38,214 bases of DNA from Dehalococcoidia bacterium (GTDB lineage Bacteria; Chloroflexota; Dehalococcoidia; Bin125): positions 1-38,214 of the forward strand of contig JAJEBU010000128.1 in the NCBI GenBank assembly GCA_022822375.1. Reading direction: 5' to 3'. Shown here piece by piece: positions 90 through 18,259 of the stretch. The translations under genes were made by a program, and so were the position numbers. The notes beneath the pieces were generated by a model. It did no database searches and had not been told where the DNA came from. It was given only the letters and a program-made list of their open reading frames with translations. Position 1 is the first letter of the stretch. Every line of letters begins with the position of its first letter.

Positions 90-107
90 AAGGTTCTCGA
101 TTTTGTC
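90..107 (+). repeat. Direct repeat copy 1 (possible att scar)
   Basis: This 18-base copy reads aaggttctcgattttgtc and matches 1025-1042 at 17 of 18 positions in the same orientation. The copy at 1025-1042 lies 5 bases from the CCA end of the tRNA-Lys gene. Similarity of the intervening pseudogene to conjugative ATPases stops about 10 bases from this copy, at about 118. That is what an element boundary would look like. The pairing as an attachment site is inference. Confidence 0.45.
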
Positions 108-117
108 TTGGGTGGTA

Positions 118-858
118 GGTCAGACGCGTCCGGACAGGCGCCAGCGCCTCGGCCTGATACTCGGTCCGCCAGCCGCTGAAGTCGTGCGCCCACCATTCGA
201 GCAGGCATGGGTCGCGCAGCTTCTTGAACACGTCGCCCCGGAACCCTTTGTGCGTGAGCAGACGCAGCGCGTCGAGGATCGCGTACTGCTCAAGCTCCTC
301 GGTGGAGGGACTAGCGTTTGCTTCATGCAGGGTCTTGACAGTTTCATCAGGATCGACTGCATCCTAGGGCCCACTGCTCCCACAGCCCGCGGGCGACGCG
401 GACGACCGAGTCGGCGCTCCGGTCGCGGTCCGCGAAGATGCACGTGTCGAGCAGGTTGATGCCGACCGCGCCGCGCCCGTCGGCCAGGTCGATCAGGTGG
501 GCCTCCGGGCCAGCGGTTCGAGATCCTGCTCTAGGACGTCGGAGACCAGGTCGGCGTGGAGGTCGACCACGACGATCGCGTCCCCGTCGCGGCCGGCCGG
601 CTAATCCCGCAGCTTGTGCGCGACGATGTGGCGCTTCAGGGTCGATGTGCCCGTCCTCGTGCGGGCGACGTAGAGATGGTGGCGGTGCAGGAGGTCTGAG
701 GGGAAGCGGATCTCGTGCGGCACGTCTCCTGTGGTGTCACCGACCACGGCGCCCTCGGTGAGCGCGTGACCCGGAGGCAGCAGCAGCTTGACGGCCGAAC
801 GCTCCAGCGCGTACGTCTCGCCCGAGGGTCCGGGCGGATGCCAGACCCCGGTCACGCG
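118..858 (-). pseudogene. Decayed conjugative DNA-transfer (TraG/VirD4-like) ATPase
   Basis: Reading the minus strand across several frames recovers one continuous protein of the type IV secretion conjugative DNA transfer (coupling ATPase) type. Pieces in order are an N-terminal segment ending HHLYVARTRTGTSTLKRHI, a Walker-B-like IVVVDLHADL, then HLIDLADGRGAVGINLLDT, LWEQW, GPRMQSIL, and finally LLEWWAHDFSGWRTEYQAEA. The parts are separated by an in-frame TAG (601-603) and about three frameshifts (near 510, 370 and 345). The Walker A lysine is also lost (GTST instead of GKST). The reading frame loses similarity at about 118, just inside the direct repeat at 90-107. It is a dead remnant of a conjugative or integrative element beside tRNA-Lys. 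Family assignment is from recognised motifs and is fairly sure; the exact subfamily is not. Confidence 0.72.
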
Positions 859-1024
859 CGCGGAGTGCACTGAGCCTCGTGCTTGTCTGGGGGCATCCAT
901 GGCAGTCACGCCATTGGATCCAAAGCTCCGACAGCCTGGAGACGGTTCCTGCTCATCGCCGTGGCCACCAAAGACCACACCAAACCAACCAGACCTTCAC
1001 AGCTCCAACGCAAAGCGAATCTCA

Positions 1025-1042
1025 AAGGTTCTTGATTTTGTC
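1025..1042 (+). repeat. Direct repeat copy 2, next to tRNA-Lys 3' end
   Basis: This is the second copy (aaggttcttgattttgtc) of the 18-base direct repeat at 90-107, with one mismatch. It starts a few bases beyond the 3' CCA end of the tRNA-Lys gene, a common place for integrases to act. The two copies bracket the ATPase pseudogene. Confidence 0.45.
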
Positions 1043-1047
1043 CAGTC

Positions 1048-1124
1048 TGGTGGGCCCTCTGGGACTCGAACCCAGGACCTTCGGATTAAAAGTCCGCTGC
1101 TCTGGCCAACTGAGCTAAGGGCCC
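1048..1124 (-). tRNA. tRNA-Lys (anticodon TTT), CCA encoded
   Basis: The minus strand folds as a complete cloverleaf. It has acceptor GGGCCCT with AGGGCCC, D stem GCTC with GAGC, anticodon loop CTTTTAA (anticodon TTT, lysine), T stem CTGGG with CCCAG around TTCGAGT, discriminator A, and an encoded CCA at 1048-1050. The outermost anticodon-stem pair is a G-A mismatch. A TACACT -10-like hexamer sits six bases upstream. A remnant of a mobile element lies immediately downstream, so this gene probably served as an integration site. Confidence 0.96.
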
Positions 1125-3432: not shown

Positions 3433-4659
3433 ATGATGCGCCGACTGAATCTGCCGACGTCCTGGACCGACCTGATGCTGCGGCGCAGCGGCTGGCGCGA
3501 CGACGTTTCGGCCTACATGGATGACGAGCTGTCGCCTGAAGAGCGCGAACGCGTCGAAGCGCGGCTGGCCGAGTCTGGCGAGATGCAGGAGTACCTGGCC
3601 GATCTGCAGCAGATGCACGCCTCCCTGCGACGTCTTTATGTCGAACCACCGCCGGTGAGCTTCCAGCTGACGCCCGAGATGCTCGACCAACCTCTGCGCG
3701 AGACGGTCGGTGGGCACTTCAGCCCGAGCCGCACGATGGCCTTGGCGTCGGTGGCGGTGATCGCCGCCGCGGCGTTCGCCGCGGCGCTCGTCTTCGACCT
3801 CATAGATGCCCCGTCAGTGCAGTACGCCCAGACCTCCGCGAGCAGCGTGGCGGCTGAGCCCGCCAGCATTCCCACTATGTCGGTGAGGACTCAGCCGGTC
3901 GAGGCGCAGGCATCGCCGTCGGCACAGTCGGCCGGGGCCGCAGAGCCTGAGTCGTCGGTCGCGGCATTCGCAGAACAGGCGCAGGAACAGGCACAGGCAC
4001 AGGTGCAAGCGCAAGCTGAGCAGCAGGCTCAGGAACAGGCCGAAGCACAAGCGATGGCAGAGACTGATCGTGGCGACGACGCGATCGCCCAGCATGCGGC
4101 CGATGAGCCGCTTGTCGCAGCGTCGGATGGGCCAGCGTCATCGGCTGACAACACGGACGAACCGTCGCGGCGCGCCCTGACGGCGGGACGCAGCGACGGC
4201 GAGGCAACCGACGCTCGACCCGTCAGCGCCAGCGCCGTGCTCGCGGCGAGCCCGCAGGCCGAACAGTCAGCGATGTCCGAGGACGCACAAGCGGCGGATG
4301 ACCGTTCGGCGTCTGCGAACGCCACAACTGCAGCGGACGCGGCGGATGACGAGTCGTCGAGCGAACGGTCGGATGCTTCGGCTGAAGGGTCCAGCGCAGC
4401 AGATCCTGGTCGGGCGCAAATCGCCATCACGGACGACGGCGACGCCGTCGATGTCGAGGTCACACGAACGGTGCGGTTGGTGACGGTGACTGAAGCGTCG
4501 GATGTGGAGAGCGCCTGGCCGTTGCAGGAGCGGCCGCGACAGCCGCTGGCTGCTGATCCAGGCTGGGAGCTGCCGTTGCAGTTGGCGCTCGGATCGCTGG
4601 CGGCGGCGGCGGCGATGGCCTGCCTGCTGCTGGGTCTCTGGGACCGCCGCACGGTCTGA
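3433..4659 (+). CDS. Anti-sigma-factor-like membrane protein, cysteine-free
   Basis: A 408-residue protein. The N-terminus has the helix VSAYMDDELSPEERERVEA (about 25-43), the signature seen after the first zinc ligand in ZAS anti-sigma factors, but the HxxxCxxC zinc site is absent. A membrane segment covers about 102-123. A long low-complexity stretch follows (Gln/Ala-rich near 183-212, then Asp/Ser/Ala-rich), and a second membrane segment lies near 382-402 before a short basic tail. Its place directly after an ECF sigma gene supports an anti-sigma role by partner logic. The stop is two bases before ribD, so the two are probably co-transcribed and translationally coupled. Lack of zinc ligands argues against thiol sensing and towards regulation by proteolysis or by the extended linker. 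The call is inference from N-terminal motif plus context. Confidence 0.72.
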   Translation: MMRRLNLPTSWTDLMLRRSGWRDDVSAYMDDELSPEERERVEARLAESGEMQEYLADLQQMHASLRRLYVEPPPVSFQLTPEMLDQPLRETVGGHFSPSRTMALASVAVIAAAAFAAALVFDLIDAPSVQYAQTSASSVAAEPASIPTMSVRTQPVEAQASPSAQSAGAAEPESSVAAFAEQAQEQAQAQVQAQAEQQAQEQAEAQAMAETDRGDDAIAQHAADEPLVAASDGPASSADNTDEPSRRALTAGRSDGEATDARPVSASAVLAASPQAEQSAMSEDAQAADDRSASANATTAADAADDESSSERSDASAEGSSAADPGRAQIAITDDGDAVDVEVTRTVRLVTVTEASDVESAWPLQERPRQPLAADPGWELPLQLALGSLAAAAAMACLLLGLWDRRTV

Positions 4660-4661
4660 CC

Positions 4662-6248
4662 ATGATGCGCTCGCACGGCTCCGGCGCCGGCAGTTCGCGC
4701 ATGATGTCGCGTGCGTTCGAGCTCGCCCGCTCCGTCTTGGGGACGACCAGTCCCAATCCGGCCGTCGGTGCGGTGATCGCACACGGGCCGCGAATCGTCG
4801 GCGAGGGGGCCACGCAGCGGCCGGGCGGTCCGCACGCGGAGGCGATGGCGCTGCGCAACGCGGGAGACCTGGCTCGCGGCGCGACCATCTACGTCACGCT
4901 CGAGCCTTGCAATCACACTGGACGCACGCCGCCCTGCACCGACGCGCTGATTGGGGCCGGCATCGCCGAAGTGGTGGTGGCGGTCGGAGATCCCGATCCA
5001 CGCGTCTCGGGCAGCGGCCTGCAACGGCTGCGCGAGGCGGGCATGGTCGTCTCGCTGGGCGACGGCGCAGCAGAAGGCGCGTCGCACTACGAGGCCTACG
5101 CGCACCACCGACGGAGCGGACGCCCCTTCGTCACGGCCAAGTTCGCCGCCTCGCTGGACGGTCGGATCGCGTCAACGAGCGGCGACTCCCGCTGGATTTC
5201 CGGTCCGCAGACGTTGCGCTGGGCGCATCGGAACCGTCCGCACTTCGACGCCATTTTGGTCGGGGTCGAGACGATTATCGTCGACAACCCGCAGCTCAGC
5301 GCGCGGCCCGAGCGCTGGACCGGCCCGGTCCCCCAGCCGTTGAGGGTCGTACTAGACAGCCGCGGCAGGACTCCGCTGGACGCGCAAGTGCTGGAAGGTC
5401 AGGATGTCAACCCCACACTGATCGCGACGACGGAGGCGTGCGATCCATCCTGGCGTGCTGCCATGGCGGCGCGTGACATCGATCTGGCCGTCGTCGAGGC
5501 AGGAACGGATGGGCGCGTCTCACTGCCCGCACTGCTGACGCGGCTCGGGCAGGATCAAGGTGTCGTCAGTCTGCTCGTCGAGGGCGGCGGCGAGGTGCTC
5601 GGATCGTTCTTCGACCAGCGGCTCGTGAACAAGGTGACCGCCGTCGTGGCGCCGATGTTGATTGGCGGAGACGCCCAACCAGCGGTCAAAGGCCGCGGCG
5701 CCGAGCGCATGCGCGATGTCCTGCGCCTCAACCGGACGTCGGTCGAGACGCTCGGCGTCGACTTGCTGGTCACGGGCTATCCGAGCGATCCAGAGCGTGA
5801 ACTCAACCTGCGGGTGCGTCCGGCGCTGACGGAGGACGCAGATACGATCGCCGAACTGCTCGCGTCGCAGATTCCAGACGGCGCGCGGTTGACCGATCGG
5901 CTCCTGTACGCCACGCGCTCCGCGTCGGCGGTGATCTGGCTCGCGGTCGCGCCGCCATCGTCGGACGCTGATGTCGAGGACATCGTCGGAGTCGGCGCGG
6001 TTGGATTTGGTCCCGACGGCCCGGCGTCGATACGCTGTCTCGCCGCCAGGGTCGACGCGCCCGCGACGACGGGCGAGCGGCTGCGCGAGTCGTGCGAAGC
6101 GTCGGCCGCCGGTCGCGACGCCGAGTGGCTGAGTCTGCCGCGGACGCAGACGCCGGCGCTGTCCGACGAGGCGTGTCGCGAAGCCGGGTTCCGCTACTAT
6201 CGCAGCGCCGAGGACGGGTCGGACATGCTGATCAAACGGCTGACATAG
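4662..6248 (+). CDS. ribD: Bifunctional RibD with C-terminal GNAT-like domain
   Basis: Riboflavin biosynthesis deaminase/reductase, 528 residues. The deaminase domain (about 14-140) carries HAE (58-60) and PCNHTGRTPPC (82-92), the zinc site of the pyrimidine deaminase. The reductase domain (about 154-375) begins FVTAKFAASLDGRIA and has VEGGGEV (306-312). Residues about 382-528 are additional to normal RibD (usually 360-400). They read like a GNAT acyltransferase, beginning RVRPALTEDADTIAEL, with a degenerate acyl-CoA loop near 463-482 and ending EAGFRYY then a final strand. RibD converts the GTP cyclohydrolase II product to 5-amino-6-ribitylamino-uracil phosphate. The start follows the previous stop by two bases. 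The ATG at 4662 is used; internal ATGs 13-14 codons on are possible. The added domain may be non-catalytic. Confidence 0.95.
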   Translation: MMRSHGSGAGSSRMMSRAFELARSVLGTTSPNPAVGAVIAHGPRIVGEGATQRPGGPHAEAMALRNAGDLARGATIYVTLEPCNHTGRTPPCTDALIGAGIAEVVVAVGDPDPRVSGSGLQRLREAGMVVSLGDGAAEGASHYEAYAHHRRSGRPFVTAKFAASLDGRIASTSGDSRWISGPQTLRWAHRNRPHFDAILVGVETIIVDNPQLSARPERWTGPVPQPLRVVLDSRGRTPLDAQVLEGQDVNPTLIATTEACDPSWRAAMAARDIDLAVVEAGTDGRVSLPALLTRLGQDQGVVSLLVEGGGEVLGSFFDQRLVNKVTAVVAPMLIGGDAQPAVKGRGAERMRDVLRLNRTSVETLGVDLLVTGYPSDPERELNLRVRPALTEDADTIAELLASQIPDGARLTDRLLYATRSASAVIWLAVAPPSSDADVEDIVGVGAVGFGPDGPASIRCLAARVDAPATTGERLRESCEASAAGRDAEWLSLPRTQTPALSDEACREAGFRYYRSAEDGSDMLIKRLT

Positions 6249-6314: not shown

Positions 6315-6962
6315 ATGTTCACGGGGATAATCGAGGAAGTCGGCGCGGTCACCGAGGCGGCCGAGGGTCTGCTGCGGATTGCCGCGCCGCTGATCCTGGA
6401 GGACGCCAAGCTGGGCGACAGCATCGCCATCAACGGCGTCGACCTGACCGTGACCTCGATTGAGGATGCCCAGTTCCTCGCCAACTTGATGCCCGAGACG
6501 TACCGCCGCTCCAACCTGGGCGAGCTGGTGGCTGGCGATCGGGTCAACCTGGAGCGCTCGGTGCGTCCGCTCGATCGGCTGTCGGGCCACCTGGTGCGCG
6601 GCGTCGTCGAGGGCCGCGGCGCGTTCCGCTCCACGCGCGAAGAATCGGAGGCCATCGTCGTCTCCTACGACGCGCCGGCGGAGCTGCTCAATCACATGAT
6701 CGTGAAGGGGCCGATCGCCATCGACGGCGTCTCGCTGACGATCATCGACAAGGACGAGGCGGGATTCGCCGTCTCGCTCGTCCAATACACTCAGCAGCAC
6801 ACCAACCTCCTGGATCGGCAGCCCGGCGACGCGGTCAACCTGGAGACCGACATACTTGCCCGCTACGTCGACGAACTGTTGACGGCGCGAATCGATCAGA
6901 TCCTGGACGACCGGCTCGCGGCGCGCGGGCTGTCCGCCGGCATTGAGCGCGGCGTTGACTGA
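6315..6962 (+). CDS. ribE: Riboflavin synthase alpha chain
   Basis: Riboflavin synthase, 215 residues, catalysing dismutation of two 6,7-dimethyl-8-ribityllumazines to riboflavin. The start MFTGIIEEVG is diagnostic. Two lumazine-binding repeats are seen, about 1-88 and 97-190, the second starting GHLVRGVVEG, with GPIAIDGVSLT near 133-143. A strong ribosome binding site AAGGAGAGG lies about 7-8 bases upstream of the ATG. The 66-base gap after ribD has no clear terminator, so it probably belongs to the same operon. The C-terminal 20 or so residues extend slightly past the usual domain end. Confidence 0.97.
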   Translation: MFTGIIEEVGAVTEAAEGLLRIAAPLILEDAKLGDSIAINGVDLTVTSIEDAQFLANLMPETYRRSNLGELVAGDRVNLERSVRPLDRLSGHLVRGVVEGRGAFRSTREESEAIVVSYDAPAELLNHMIVKGPIAIDGVSLTIIDKDEAGFAVSLVQYTQQHTNLLDRQPGDAVNLETDILARYVDELLTARIDQILDDRLAARGLSAGIERGVD

Positions 6963-6979
6963 GACGAAGGTGGTGTCCA

Positions 6980-8359
6980 ATGAGCGACGACCAGACTCCT
7001 GCAGACAGTGGCGCAAGCCGGGCCAAGGGTAAGCGGCGCCCCGCCAAGCGTCCTGGGGGGCGTCCCGGCGGGCGTCCGGCGACCCGGCGCAGGGAGTCGC
7101 CCTTCTGCACGGTCGAGGAAGCGATCGAGGTCTTCGCCAACGGCGAACCGCTGATCATCACCGACGACGAAGACCGCGAGAACGAGGGCGACCTCGCGCT
7201 GCCCGCGCAGTTCACGACGCCTGAGTCGATCAACTTCATGGCCACCCACGGCCGCGGCCTGATCTGCGTCGCGATGGAGGGTCAGCTGCTGGATCGCCTC
7301 GGCTTGCGGTTGATGGTCGACCAGAGCTCCAACACGGCGCCGCTGGGGACCGCGTTCACGGTCTCGGTCGAAGCCCGCTCGGGCGTCACCACGGGCATTT
7401 CCGCCGCCGACCGCGCGCGCACGATTCGCGTGCTGATGGATCCCAACTCAGGTCCCAACGACATCGTCTCGCCCGGCCACATGTTCCCGCTGCGCGCTCG
7501 CGACGGCGGCACGCTCGTCCGCGCGGGGCAGACCGAGGCGTCGGTCGACCTCTGCCGCCTGGCCGGGCTACAGCCGGGCGCGGTGATCTGCGAAATCATG
7601 AAGAAGAACGGCGAGATGGCGCGCTTGCCCGACTTGACCAGATTCTCCAAGCGGCACGGGCTGAAGATGGTCTCGGTCGAGCAGATCATCCAATATCGGT
7701 TGCGCACCGAGCAGTTGGTCGAGCGTGTGACGGAGACCAAACTACCCACGCCGACTGGCACGTGGCGGCTGATCGGCTACCGCACCGCCGACCATCTGGA
7801 GGAGCATGTCGCGCTCGTGATGGGCAACGTGACGGGCGGCGAGCCGGTGCTGGTTCGTGTCCACTCGCAGTGTCTGACGGGGGACGTGTTCGCATCCCAG
7901 CGCTGCGACTGCGGCGAGCAGCTGGAGATCGCGATGCGAATGGTCTCCGAGCAGCGGCGGGGGGTGATCGTCTACATGGCGCAGGAGGGTCGCGGGATTG
8001 GCCTGCACAACAAGCTCGCCGCCTACGCGCTGCAAGATCAGGGCATGGACACCGTGGAAGCCAACCTCGCGCTGGGCTTTGAAGCAGATCGCCGCGATTA
8101 CGGCATTGGAATGCAAATCCTGCGCGACCTGGGCATCCAGCGCATTCGGCTGATGACGAACAACCCGTCCAAGCGTCACGGACTGGCCGGATACGGCCTG
8201 GAGATCGTGGAGCGCGTGTCAGTCGTCGCGCCGCCCAATCCGCACAATGTGCGCTACCTGGCGGTCAAGCAGGAAAAGATGGGTCACATCTTCGACGAGG
8301 ACGGCGATGCAACGACGCCGCCGGGCGACGATCCACCGCGACGCGCGGCGATCGGTTAA
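6980..8359 (+). CDS. ribBA: Bifunctional DHBP synthase/GTP cyclohydrolase II
   Basis: RibBA, 459 residues, supplying both riboflavin precursors. An unusual basic N-terminal tail (1-38, rich in Arg, Lys, Gly and Pro) precedes the DHBP synthase domain, which shows DDEDRENEGDL (62-72) and DQSSNTAPLGTAFTVSV near 114-130. The GTP cyclohydrolase II domain has the zinc cysteines in SQCLTGDVFASQRCDC (Cys298, 309, 311), QEGRGIGL (335-342) and a final TNNPSKRHGL. Both active sites look intact. It starts 17 bases after ribE and ends one base before the ribH GTG, so translation is likely coupled. The basic tail resembles a disordered nucleic-acid-binding extension, not part of the usual family. Confidence 0.97.
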   Translation: MSDDQTPADSGASRAKGKRRPAKRPGGRPGGRPATRRRESPFCTVEEAIEVFANGEPLIITDDEDRENEGDLALPAQFTTPESINFMATHGRGLICVAMEGQLLDRLGLRLMVDQSSNTAPLGTAFTVSVEARSGVTTGISAADRARTIRVLMDPNSGPNDIVSPGHMFPLRARDGGTLVRAGQTEASVDLCRLAGLQPGAVICEIMKKNGEMARLPDLTRFSKRHGLKMVSVEQIIQYRLRTEQLVERVTETKLPTPTGTWRLIGYRTADHLEEHVALVMGNVTGGEPVLVRVHSQCLTGDVFASQRCDCGEQLEIAMRMVSEQRRGVIVYMAQEGRGIGLHNKLAAYALQDQGMDTVEANLALGFEADRRDYGIGMQILRDLGIQRIRLMTNNPSKRHGLAGYGLEIVERVSVVAPPNPHNVRYLAVKQEKMGHIFDEDGDATTPPGDDPPRRAAIG

Positions 8360-8851
8360 GTGATGCCCAACGTCCACGACGGCGCCGCCAATCCCAATCC
8401 TGAGCAAGGCCCGGCCGCCGGGCTGCGCTTCGCAGTGGTCGTCAGCCGCTTCAACGACTTTGTCACGGCCGCGCTGCTCGATGGCTGCATCGACCACCTG
8501 GAGTCGAACGGCGCCGACCCCGACCAGATTGACATCTACTGGGTGCCTGGCGCATTCGAGATACCGCTCGCCGCGCAGAAGTGCGCGCAGACGGGGCGCT
8601 TCGACGCCGTCATCTGCCTCGGCGCGGTAATCGAAGGGGAGACGGATCACTACCGCCTGGTCGTGGACGGGGCGATGCACGGCATCGCCAGGGTCAGCCT
8701 GGACACGGGCGTGCCGGTCATCTTCGAAGTGCTGGCGACGCAGACGACGGCGCTGGCGATGGCCAGAGCCGGCGGCTCGGCGGGCAACAAGGGCGAGGAA
8801 GCGGCGCAAGCGGCCATCGAGATGACGCGCCTACTGGGGACGATTGCGTAA
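8360..8851 (+). CDS. ribH: 6,7-dimethyl-8-ribityllumazine synthase
   Basis: Lumazine synthase, 163 residues, condensing 5-amino-6-ribitylamino-uracil with dihydroxybutanone phosphate. Motifs are VVVSRFNDF near 29-37, WVPGAFEIPLAAQ (61-73), and GAVIEGETDHYRLV (about 90-103) with the catalytic His. The start is GTG at 8360, or the next codon ATG at 8363. Both sit immediately after the ribBA stop, so the two are translationally coupled. It is the last gene of the riboflavin run. Length is in the normal range; the first 24 residues are a variable tail. Confidence 0.97.
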   Translation: MMPNVHDGAANPNPEQGPAAGLRFAVVVSRFNDFVTAALLDGCIDHLESNGADPDQIDIYWVPGAFEIPLAAQKCAQTGRFDAVICLGAVIEGETDHYRLVVDGAMHGIARVSLDTGVPVIFEVLATQTTALAMARAGGSAGNKGEEAAQAAIEMTRLLGTIA

Positions 8852-10122: not shown

Positions 10123-11205
10123 TTACGCCGTGTTTGCGGCGGAGGCGTATTGGTGCAGGCCGAGCTGGTCGCGCCAGCCTTCTGATGCTTCCTTGGTGCG
10201 ATCGTCGAGCGGGATGCCGCAGCCGTCGGCGATGCGGACCATGCGCTGGAAGTTCGCGATGTTCGCTGCAGCCTCGATGGCGGCGGTGTCGCCGAGTTCG
10301 CGGCGCACCGCAGCGCGGATCTCCGCCAGATTGGCGCGGCGGCCGACAGCGGCGTCGCAGAACTGCAGGAGCAGTCTGCCGTGCGGCACCCCGGAATCGA
10401 CGGCAACATCGACCGCAGCGGAGAGTTCGTACTGATCATCGGACCCACTCCGACCGAGCAGGTTGACGTGCGACACCGTTCAATAGAAGCACTCGTTGAG
10501 GGCAGACACGCGGCCAGCCATGATCTCCAGCTGGGCGCGGGTGAGCGTACGATGCTCGGTTTCGAGATCGCCGATCTCCTCCCAGCTCAGATAGTGGGCG
10601 TGGAACAGGTCGTTCAGCCAGCGGACGCTGTCCGGGTGGAGGCTCATCGCCGCCCAGACATTGGCGGCGCGTGGGAACCCCAGATAGATGTCGGCCTCGG
10701 AGTCGGCCAAGCTCTTCGCGGCCAGCGTCGGCGGCCAGCTACCGTTGTCGGCGAGGCCTGCGGGGCGCCGTTGGGTCGGTTCGCCGGTGATCGGACTGGG
10801 CAGCGGCTCGAGTGGCAGTCCCGCCGCGCGGTGGAACTCGTCGACCGACCAAACGGCAACCAGCACGCCGAGCAGCTCGACATATCGAGCGTCGGACATG
10901 CCGTCGGCGCTCACGGTGGCGTCGTACCAGTCTCGGCTCACATTGGGCAGGTCGCCGATCAGCCGATGGATGGCGAAGACGGCGGCCTCGGGCAGCTCAG
11001 CTGGTCCGGCGCCGGGATCAGGAAGACCGTCGACCAGCGCCGAGGCGCGTCGGCACTCGGCAGCGATGCTGACTCGCTCTGCGCCTGTCCACCAGTCACC
11101 TGCCGCGGAGAGGCGCTCCCAACTGCGGCGGTGGGCGTCGCGGATGCGGCCTGGAATCTGCCAATCTGTGTCGATGTAGCTGAACGGTGCGATGGTGGTC
11201 GTCAT
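10123..11205 (-). CDS. AhpD-like (CMD family) selenoprotein, copy 1
   Basis: Two stacked reading frames (10480-11205 and 10123-10476) are in the same frame and separated only by a TGA at 10480-10482 and one sense codon. Read through as selenocysteine the product is 360 residues with Sec242. The motif is E227-x11-C239-x2-U242-x3-H246 (local text ALNECFY-U-TVSHVNLL), precisely the AhpD alkylhydroperoxidase signature E-x11-C-x2-C-x3-H with the second Cys replaced by Sec. The N-terminal half resembles a cysteine-poor CMD-type domain (DWWTGAERVS near 37). A stem-loop follows the TGA (10446-10470). It lies 13 bases after copy 2 and shares much of its sequence, especially the last 45 residues. Probable role: peroxidase or disulfide reductase. 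TGA acts as an ordinary stop in other genes here, so the code is not reassigned. Confidence 0.85.
10446..10470 (-). promoter_or_regulatory. Candidate bacterial SECIS hairpin, copy 1
   Basis: Starting 10 bases after the TGA, CACGTCAACC pairs with GGTCGGAGTG. This gives eight pairs, one of them G-U, with two mismatches. The five-base apical loop TGCTC has G at its second position. The loop begins about 19 bases from the TGA, inside the range known for bacterial SECIS elements. Folding was done by eye. Confidence 0.5.
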
Positions 11206-11218
11206 CGTGACCTCTCTG

Positions 11219-12274
11219 TCATGCGGTGTTTGCGGCGGAGGCGTATTGGTGGAGGCCGAGCTGGTCTCGCCAGTCTTCCGATGCTTCCTTGGTGAAATCG
11301 TCGAGCGGGATGCCGCAGCCGTCGGCGATGCGGACCATGCGCTGGAAGTTGGCCACGACGCCGGCGCTGTCGACCAGCTCCTGCGGCCCGAGCTCAGCGG
11401 CGATCCGCTCTCTCAGTCCCGGCAATGAGTCGGTGCGACGCACGGCGGCCTCGGCGAATGCGGTCAGCAGGCTGTCGTGCGGGACACCGCTGTCGGAATG
11501 ATCGACGGCGCCTTGCAGATTCAAGCGATCGAGCGTGCCTTGTCGGTCGCTGCTCTCACGGAGCATGCGGACGTGCGAGGTGGTTCAATAGAAGCACTCG
11601 TTCAGCGCGGAGACGCGGGCGGCGATCAGTTCGATCTGCGGACGGGAGATGGCGCGCAACGGGTCGGGCATGCGCATTTCGCGGAACGACAGGTAGTGCG
11701 CCTCTGAGAGGTCGTGTAGCCAGCCTAGATTCTCGGGGATCAGGGAGAGCGCCGAGAGGACGTTGGCGCCCCACTCGAGCGGGCCGTAATGCTGGGCGAG
11801 CTCGGGCGGCAAGCCCGACTTGGGCACAATCGGCGCCCAGGACCACTTCTGTTCGGCGGCGGACGGCCGCTGCCGCGACGGATCGCCCGGCTGCGGATCG
11901 GGCAGCGGCTCCAGCGGGATTCCGAGCGCGCGGTGGAACTCGTCCACCGACAGCGCGTGCACGACGACAGCCACCAGCTCGATGTAGCGGTCTTCGGACA
12001 TGCCAGGCGCGGTGATGGTCTCGTCGTAGAAGCCGCGGTTGAGGTTGGCGTTGTCGACGACGAGCTTCTGGATCGCAAAGACCGCCGCCTCGGGCAGGAT
12101 GCTGCTCTTGGCAGGGTCGAAGTGTCGTGCGGCGCGCTGCAGGCGGGCGATCTCGACGCGTTCAGCGCCCGTCCACCAGCGGCCGGGCCGAGCGATCCGC
12201 TCCCAGCTGTCGCGGTGCGCGTTGATAGTCGTCTCTCGGATGGGCAGGTTCACGTCGGAGTATGCAAAGGCCAT
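11219..12274 (-). CDS. AhpD-like (CMD family) selenoprotein, copy 2
   Basis: As with copy 1, a TGA at 11585-11587 joins two in-frame segments (11585-12274 and 11219-11584, no other stop between them). Readthrough gives 351 residues with Sec230. The motif is E215-x11-C227-x2-U230-x3-H234 (ALNECFY-U-TTSHVRML). The N-terminal domain has RWWTGAERVEI and is clearly homologous to copy 1. The chosen ATG at 12274 aligns with copy 1; the frame stays open upstream to 12475 but that part overlaps the divergent crotonase and lacks similarity. This is the first gene of the pair, expressed from the intergenic palindrome at 12358-12386. Two diverged copies keeping TGA at the same codon argues strongly for selection for Sec and against decay. 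Substrate is unknown. Confidence 0.85.
11553..11579 (-). promoter_or_regulatory. Candidate bacterial SECIS hairpin, copy 2
   Basis: Five bases after the TGA, CTCGCACG pairs with CGTGAGAG at seven of eight positions (one G-A mismatch) around an 11-base loop TCCGCATGCTC that includes G. The CAC/GTG core pairs are the same ones used in copy 1, although the intervening sequence differs. The loop begins about 13 bases after TGA, slightly close for the usual spacing. Confidence 0.45.
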
Positions 12275-17440: not shown

Positions 17441-18259
17441 TTATGCGAATCGAGGGCCGAACCGCGACTCGCCCGACGCACGACGAGACCCCGCAGGCGG
17501 CAAGTCAGTAGAGGGGCCAGAGTGGAGGGCCGTGTGGAGGGCGGCCGCATGAGCGCGGCGGGCGCGGCGATCGTCGATCGGCGCCAGCTCGGGCGCATCC
17601 GATCCATCGCGCCGCGCCAGCGCCAACCGCAGGAGGCGATCGGCCAGATGGGGATTCTTGGGCAGCACCGCTCCGTGCAGATAGGTGCCGAAGGCGTTAG
17701 CGACGCGGGCGCCTTCGAGCCCGTCGCCGCCGTTGTTGCCGAACCCGCTGACGACGTCAGCGAGCGGCTCTTGTCCGTCGTTCAGATAGGTGCGTCCCCC
17801 GTGGTTCTCGAAGCCGACCACCGTCTCGCCCTCCCACAGCGCGACCACATTGCCCACGCAGCGGGGAATACTGGGTCCCGGATGGGCCGCTACCGCGTCA
17901 AACACGCCGATGCCTTCCATGATCTCGCCGTCCCAGCCTCGGTAGTGATTGCCGAACAGCTGGAAGCCGCCGCAGACGGCGAGCACGACGCCGTCGTCGT
18001 CCACGTAGTCGTGCAGGGCGTTGCCGCGCCGCTGCAGGTCGGCCTGGACGCGGCGTTGCTCGCGATCCTGTCCGCCGCCGGCCAGGATGATGTCGGCCGA
18101 TTGCGGCGACCAGTCGTCGCCGATCTCAACCGCGGTGACCACGACCTCGATGGCGCGCGCCGCGCAGCGCCGTTCCAGCGCTCGGGCGTTGCCGCGGTCG
18201 CCGTACAGGTTGAGCAGCTCGGGATAGAGCACGGCGATGTTCAGCGCAGCGGACGTCAT
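17441..18259 (-). CDS. gatD: Lipid II isoglutaminyl synthase, glutaminase subunit
   Basis: GatD-type amidotransferase, 272 residues. It makes ammonia from glutamine for MurT, which amidates the D-glutamate of lipid II. The nucleophile is in LAVCGGFQLFG (Cys96), with DIILAGGGQDREQ (56-68) and the catalytic His in FGTYLHGAVLPKNP (His195). The N-terminal IAVLYPELLNLYGDRGN is typical of GatD. The last 45 or so residues are an Arg/Ala/Pro-rich tail. ATG 18259 overlaps the murT stop by four bases (coupled translation); a longer upstream frame is not supported. It shows that cell wall precursors are probably amidated here, as in Gram-positive-related groups. Confidence 0.96.
   Translation of the reverse strand: MTSAALNIAVLYPELLNLYGDRGNARALERRCAARAIEVVVTAVEIGDDWSPQSADIILAGGGQDREQRRVQADLQRRGNALHDYVDDDGVVLAVCGGFQLFGNHYRGWDGEIMEGIGVFDAVAAHPGPSIPRCVGNVVALWEGETVVGFENHGGRTYLNDGQEPLADVVSGFGNNGGDGLEGARVANAFGTYLHGAVLPKNPHLADRLLRLALARRDGSDAPELAPIDDRRARRAHAAALHTALHSGPSTDLPPAGSRRASGESRFGPRFA

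Follow-up and report, generated by a model that had tools for sequence, protein, structure and literature searches.

The window, a stretch of 38,214 nucleotides that makes up contig C40 of a 2.72-Mb, 158-contig draft genome, starts at a contig end, the left flank of its first features being absent. Near that end lie a tRNA-Lys(TTT) gene with its CCA included, two copies of a short repeat (90-107 and 1025-1042) and, between them, a broken gene for a VirD4/TraG-like coupling ATPase. Both repeat copies fit AAGGTTCTYGATTTTGTC with 0 mismatches, in agreement with the 17/18 direct repeat described in an earlier sequence-only reading of this DNA, and their ungapped likeness reaches 30 nt at 80%. The repeat is not random: at ≤3 mismatches AAGGTTCTYGATTTTGTC is matched twice in the window, compared with a mean of 0.03 matches in 100 shuffles, none of which gave two or more. 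As that reading had also stated, five bases (1043-1047) intervene between the second copy and the 3' end of the tRNA gene. Farther along the same contig, two adjacent stretches (10127-10995 and 11223-12097) share 67% identity and are probably tandem paralogous genes.

The ATPase gene shows 48% identity over 256 aligned positions to a 693-residue VirD4-like frame on contig C74 of the same genome, a frame that runs open as far as the contig edge. In the window, the gene contains stops and a frame break; set against the copy on contig C1, it has three single-base gaps and one stop in an otherwise matching frame, and it reads GTST where the C1 copy reads GKST, bearing out both the breakage and the loss of the Walker A lysine noticed from the letters alone. 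Similarity had been said to end close to the first repeat, and DNA likeness to the VirD4 genes of C74 and C61 indeed starts at 112. The VirB4, VirD4 and Replic_Relax genes of this genome are located on C74 and C61, and Replic_Relax genes also lie near two of the recombinase pairs described below (L101 and L103). An intact coupling protein with transfer genes was looked for at the window site, and only the broken VirD4 piece between the arms was found.

The repeat belongs to a dispersed sequence family. The pattern AAGGTTCTTGATTTTGTCCAG at ≤3 mismatches gives eight matches in this genome and, across 61 genomes, 65 matches in 19 genomes versus 2 for the reversed pattern, a count that includes some three-mismatch matches from distant genomes (L042-L044 and L055) that have no arm sequence around them and look like chance. 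The sequence-only reading had held that both copies in relatives without the pseudogene would refute it; the motif occurs in 12 of the 14 same-genus genomes, beside other sequences, and so counts against that reading. Two contexts predominate: the motif, here called the "A arm," occurs right after the CCA of a tRNA gene, or a core (TTTGGTGG) comes next and then a second arm (GTACCGAACTGCGAAC...), here called the "B arm." Rfam models at the gathering threshold found only rRNA and tRNA in eight loci, and a scan of IMG/VR for the exact arm plus core gave 0 matches.

The A arms of this genome are located at tRNA-Lys(TTT), tRNA-Ile(GAT), tRNA-Glu(TTC), tRNA-Ala(GGC) and tRNA-Ala(CGC). Two contigs, C50 ending after tRNA-Ala(GGC) and C141 after tRNA-Ala(CGC), have an identical 141-bp suffix consisting of an A arm and island DNA; judged by this identity, a single island end is joined to two tRNA-Ala genes. 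DNA beside the sites on C1 and C75 encodes a type I R fragment, a TacA/GNAT pair, a ThiF/E1-like protein, an IrrE-like protein and a DEAD/ResIII helicase. In one other locus (L014, contig C81, 6605-8448), the A arm follows a tRNA-Ile(GAT) gene situated just downstream of a 16S rRNA gene (6951-8448), and this island end seems to be inside an rRNA operon spacer; Rfam found no 23S rRNA on this 12,967-bp contig.

Features at the left end of the window
Feature	Positions	Strand	Evidence or counterpart
Second island's end, A-arm side, truncated by contig end	1..119	+	Identical to C75:4596-4714 (119 bp)
A arm of tRNA-Glu(CTC) subtype, left repeat copy	90..110	+	Same subtype at tRNA-Glu(CTC), congener locus L068
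Left-site core GGTGGTAGG, joined to VirD4 gene, no tRNA or B arm there	111..119	+	Same core at tRNA-Glu(CTC) in L068; VirD4 similarity from 112
VirD4/TraG-type coupling ATPase pseudogene	112..855	-	One stop, three single-base gaps, Walker A Lys replaced; C61 homologue fits PF10412 and PF12696
Island DNA common to contig C1, up to A arm	856..996	.	Window 283-1059 = 92% identity to C1:2473-3252
Class II (recombinase-less) A arm, tail TFEIRFALEL + stop, holds right repeat copy 1025-1042	997..1047	-	
Core = tRNA-Lys 3' end (CCCACCA), probable crossover region	1048..1054	-	
tRNA-Lys(TTT), integration target	1048..1124	-	

The two repeat copies in the window lie in different surroundings. The right copy is held in an A arm that sits immediately after the CCA of tRNA-Lys, and in the C1 counterpart of the adjoining inward island DNA the arm joins a B arm instead. 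The left copy is part of a stretch that matches C75 exactly; beyond it the two sequences part, C75 leading to a B arm and the window to the VirD4 pseudogene. Position 112, where VirD4 likeness begins, falls inside the core GGTGGTAGG of this second A arm, and the VirD4 homologues read GCGTAGTAG at the same place, which has only partial resemblance to the core. Recombination at a core-like site inside the VirD4 gene is thus likely, albeit not proven. The part in common with the tRNA end, the core, is only about 7-9 bp long.

An insertion at tRNA-Lys is supported by relatives, for which the sequence-only reading had proposed a search for an empty site: among 10 congeners read at tRNA-Lys(TTT), 9 are without either arm downstream, and one (G012) has an A arm. 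The DNA that follows tRNA-Lys in G007 served as query to look in this genome for the far end of the window's island; it gave 46 matches, the best at 71% over ~150 bases and none convincing. In another congener (G006, locus L296), a second, slightly different tRNA-Lys(TTT) adjoins the first (4526-4601 and 4884-4960), possibly from another integration.

Large serine recombinases are found at many of the arm sites in related genomes. A PF00239 search of four genomes gave 19 matches, including three convergent pairs of large serine recombinases, each with a span of 3088 bp. In these pairs the 3' ends of the two genes, designated "Rec1" and "Rec2," overlap antiparallel over the A and B arms; in the pair at L101 the two proteins are 59% identical over 497 residues. 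Resolvase, Recombinase and zinc-ribbon domains (PF00239, PF07508 and PF13408) all score above the Pfam cut-offs in the one Rec1 and one Rec2 scanned. A scan of the named genome collection found 195 relatives, the best 80 of which were kept (79 loci); of these, 75 are titled Chloroflexi/Chloroflexota, Dehalococcoidia or SAR202 and 4 are Acidobacteria or Bryobacterales MAGs; as the loci were fetched by recombinase patterns, they are uninformative on how common the system is.

The ends of the two recombinase genes are distributed quite differently in these 79 loci from the best 80 of 195 relatives. Among 43 Rec2 ends, 20 are in pairs and 17 at a tRNA 3' end, which leaves 5 that are unclassified and 1 at a contig end; among 54 Rec1 ends, 20 are in pairs, none is at a tRNA, 32 are unclassified and 2 are at contig ends. 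Measured from residue 495, the distance from Rec2 to the tRNA is 74 nt in 14 cases, 76 in 2 and 166 in one (L187, where a closer tRNA-Arg is present). The targets of Rec2 are tRNA-Ala(TGC), Ala(GGC), Ile, Met, Val, Gln, Arg(CCG) and Arg(CCT), from scans of recombinase ends and arm sites that covered tRNAs only and would miss tmRNA. All 20 pair junctions share the order A arm, GGCCCACCA-like core, B arm, with a single core direction. Searches of phage and plasmid collections with Rec2 as query gave only matches below 60% identity, the closest proteins listed being about 25-32% identical. On a small contig at L111 (C56, 869-3248), three consecutive Phage_integrase (tyrosine recombinase) matches resemble a recombinase trio.

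How similar the two enzymes are depends on the part of the protein that is compared. In a tree of 97 recombinases built from the part after residue 150, Rec1 and Rec2 are fully split (43/43 versus 0/54, support 1.0), whereas the catalytic part of the same proteins gives no such split, its best branch holding 31/54 versus 2/43. Across 18 pairs, Rec1 and Rec2 of different pairs share 84% catalytic identity, compared with 85% among Rec1 and 88% among Rec2; for the remainder, identity is 43% between types and 63-73% within them. Catalytic identity within a pair is slightly higher still (86.7% in 16 pairs; 12 of 10,000 permutations were as high), and shared ancestry may contribute to this, since the remainder is also marginally more alike within pairs (420 of 10,000 permutations). 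Exchange between the Rec1 and Rec2 genes would account for this, as would a tetramer interface common to both enzymes, and the two may act together. Pairwise gene conversion was rejected as the sole cause of the alike catalytic domains, the partner being the best catalytic match in just 2 of 16 pairs. The need for both enzymes is unproven because in two genomes with Rec2 (G061 and G065) all recombinases that could be typed (2/2 and 4/4) are Rec2.

Comparison of the arm sites reveals two classes that differ in the direction of the core. Of 119 arm matches, 53 were assigned to class I and 43 to class II; the 23 that fit neither core were excluded. In the class II, or solitary, sites the core is inverted between the same arms relative to class I. 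In distinct contexts, Rec1 is found on the A side of 44/44 class I sites versus 0/48 class II sites, a difference in which the first figure is partly by construction, as many loci were fetched by recombinase, and the second is not. The 48 class II A sites adjoin a tRNA in 15 cases, a B arm in 16 and other sequence in 17, the last group including the window's left site and at least one site (L059) whose B arm was missed by the pattern.

Most of the class II arms contain what look like short coding tails. In 36 of 45 distinct class II A arms, the first stop comes right after ten codons in one frame, and in 15 of 18 class II B arms it comes after eight; in the remaining two frames the most frequent stop position accounts for 19/45 and 5/45 A arms and for 1/18 and 5/18 B arms. 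These tails, with peptides such as TFELRFRLDV and TFEWELAL, vary most at the third codon position and least at the second; they were read beyond the part of the arm used for finding them, and the sequences are related and so do not count as independent events. The left A arm of the window is among those without a fixed stop. The residues RT recur in recombinase tails, whether these lie at tRNAs, in pairs or in class II arms, and had at first seemed a sign of protein conservation; because half-site DNA itself can give RT, only codons beyond these residues were used. At three Rec2 ends (C114, C156 and L165), the reading frame crosses the core into a class II B arm and terminates at the B-arm stop; the Rec2 of this genome on C114 ends within that arm with ...DGGPSCTELRTFEWMFAL and the stop. 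The corresponding Rec1-A-core-A2 junction, in which Rec1 is predicted to run through the core into a class II A (A2) tail, was not seen among the reading frames examined. The simpler view of class II arms as the terminus of an integrase gene resident at the site was considered and dropped, in view of the 0/48 class II sites with Rec1.

One locus provides both ends of a class I island. On G071:C49, tRNA-Ile ends at 17,889 with Rec2 pointing at it, Rec1 (67,386-68,933) points away, and the Rec2 gene of a second island lies directly beyond Rec1; GGCCCACCA is present at each end, ~51 kb apart. The 8 of 29 listed ORFs of this island that were scanned include type I restriction-modification M, S and R subunits, an AbiEii toxin-family protein, SIR2, a type ISP restriction enzyme, AAA_5 and nSTAND3.

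Taken together, these arrangements suggest how the islands could be built and moved. Class I islands carry the two paralogous large serine recombinases, and their attP, seen at tandem junctions and presumably also formed on a circle, consists of Rec1, A arm, GGCCCACCA core, B arm and Rec2, with the genes convergent and overlapping. Integration into a tRNA 3' end of the same core would leave Rec2 beside the tRNA, with Rec1 at the opposite end and both genes reading out of the island. Class II islands have the same arms with the core inverted and no recombinase; their A arm lies next to the tRNA, their B arm at the opposite end, and they are probably mobilized in trans. Islands stack in tandem. 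The arms and cores, the layout of the genes, their nearness to tRNAs and the tails can be read in the sequences, whereas catalysis by Rec1 and Rec2, joint action of the two and excision of the islands are predicted from sequence comparisons. In the window, the end of a recombinase-less island probably occupies the 3' end of tRNA-Lys, its sole recognizable gene decayed and severed by the end of another island; the VirD4 gene was presumably cut when its core-like sequence recombined with the A end of an island of the tRNA-Glu(CTC) type.

That the window holds one end of a class II island at tRNA-Lys, within a two-class family of Chloroflexota islands whose attP follows the paired-recombinase model, is considered probable. 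Against it stand the ends that it leaves unaccounted for: 17 of 48 class II A sites beside neither a tRNA nor a recognized B arm, 32 of 54 Rec1 ends and 5 of 43 Rec2 ends next to unclassified sequence, and the 23 excluded arm matches. The sequence-only reading had described the locus as the scar of a conjugative element bracketed by the repeat, and a single element that entered tRNA-Lys with its own flanking direct repeat and then suffered an internal deletion would account for the repeat, the tRNA and the VirD4 remnant, all of which are present, in a genome that has VirD4, VirB4 and Replic_Relax genes elsewhere (C74 and C61). A remnant of mobile DNA with a conjugation-type gene at a tRNA 3' end stands from that reading, but the repeat as the two ends of one element does not. 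The bracketing repeat is a dispersed att-family arm with varied neighbors, its left copy belongs to a different island, whose sequence joins a B arm on C75, and the two cores (GGTGGTAGG versus GGTGGGCCC) differ, each fitting another tRNA, so that a single element is improbable. Much the same distribution makes it exceedingly improbable that the arms are dispersed tRNA-linked repeats, such as regulatory or processing signals, with no role in recombination: 15 of the 48 class II sites are directly at tRNA 3' ends, as such repeats might be, but the same A arm lies within the recombinase overlap at pair junctions, one identical end occurs on two different tRNA-Ala genes, and the arm is not constant at a given tRNA, being absent downstream of tRNA-Lys in nine of the ten congeners.

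A different relationship between the classes is conceivable, in which class II ends are landing sites left behind by excision or decay of class I islands rather than ends of separate mobile islands. The recombinase-tail-like codons in arms that lack a recombinase would fit this, and sites of the tRNA-A or B-A kind could receive class I islands under the same rules; yet the core runs counter to the class I direction, an outcome not expected of simple excision, and one class II end with its island DNA is found on two tRNA-Ala genes, making this account unlikely. Assembly must also be considered, as nearly all source genomes are draft MAGs in which chimeric joins are possible, the first base of the window is a contig end, and the 119- and 141-bp identities look, from their lengths, like assembly k-mer overlaps, for which two copies in one genome and a mixed population are both possible. 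Still, the arrangements recur in many assemblies, in 79 named loci from the best 80 of 195 relatives, with constant spacing to the tRNA, and it is very unlikely that the joins as a whole are artifacts of a fragmented MAG.

Among known systems, the nearest is that of the Dehalococcoides ssrA islands; the layout described here is new. In McMurdie et al. 2011 (PMC3146451), tandem islands with a 20-bp repeat are described at the 3' end of ssrA, the tmRNA gene; the island end nearest that gene carries DsiB, a CcrB-like serine recombinase of 540 residues, and a small second recombinase, DsiA (200 residues), belongs to the same putative operon. A six-gene module of these islands includes DsiA, RecF-like, ParB and Mom. 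According to that paper, the 3' end of dsiB always overlaps attL, with a stop only outside the island, and its authors suggest that a neighboring island might hold the needed 3' fragment; the class II B arms look like such fragments. The two systems are alike in having tandem islands at the 3' end of a tRNA or tRNA-like gene and a gene-proximal recombinase that overlaps the att site without a stop of its own, Rec2 reading into a tRNA 3' end in 17/43 cases (79 loci, best 80 of 195). They are unlike in that the targets identified here, in scans for tRNAs only, are many tRNAs and the target there is the tmRNA, in that the second recombinase is full-length and at the far end here and small there, and in that here the genes converge over attP and some islands lack a recombinase and have an inverted core and coding tails. 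The ccrA and ccrB genes of SCCmec are co-transcribed, as noted in PMC3146451.

Two other families of serine recombinases show more limited similarity. As in SCCmec, two serine recombinases are involved, and CcrB is the best NCBIfam match of both Rec1 and Rec2; however, the scores fall far under the cut-offs (155.7 and 136 bits versus 900 for CcrB, 89.2 and 74.2 versus 700 for CcrA), and neither protein qualifies as a CcrA or CcrB equivalog. The ccrA and ccrB genes are not known to lie at opposite ends of the cassette. In phages and conjugative elements, large serine integrases normally work singly. With members such as A118, TP901-1, SPbeta YokA and TnpX, Rec1 and Rec2 share the Resolvase, Recombinase and zinc-ribbon domains, and PDB chains of these proteins fit the Rec profile, although the closest phage and plasmid proteins listed are only about 25-32% identical. 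No title or abstract start on convergent paired serine recombinases at tRNAs was found in a literature search whose scope lay outside preprints and most subscription journals and which is not proof of absence.

If the proposed scheme is correct, these Chloroflexota would have an island system based on tRNAs, with defense-type genes in tandem arrays in the islands looked at, and it would provide a natural pair of serine integrases with nearly identical catalytic domains and differing DNA-binding parts. A further step, offered tentatively as somewhat less likely to be right than wrong, is a two-tier island economy in which integration parts the convergent recombinase genes and strips their C-terminal codons, and class II arms carry portable 3' gene ends (about 10-20 codons and a stop) that complete the recombinases of a docked neighbor. 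With 3' ends supplied in this way, recombinase activity would depend on the neighbor in the array. The system bears directly on the question raised in 2011 for Dehalococcoides (PMC3146451) of what supplies the absent 3' end of the integrase gene.

The contacts between neighboring islands vary. At L141 and L123, the Rec1 end of one island faces a tRNA held by the Rec2 end of a second, a tRNA-Met ~115 bp off in the former and a tRNA-Ala ~6 kb off in the latter. At L124 (~2665) and L121 (~9512), a class II B half-site comes no more than ~10-20 nt after the core of a Rec1 A arm, two island ends lying back to back with a few bases in common.
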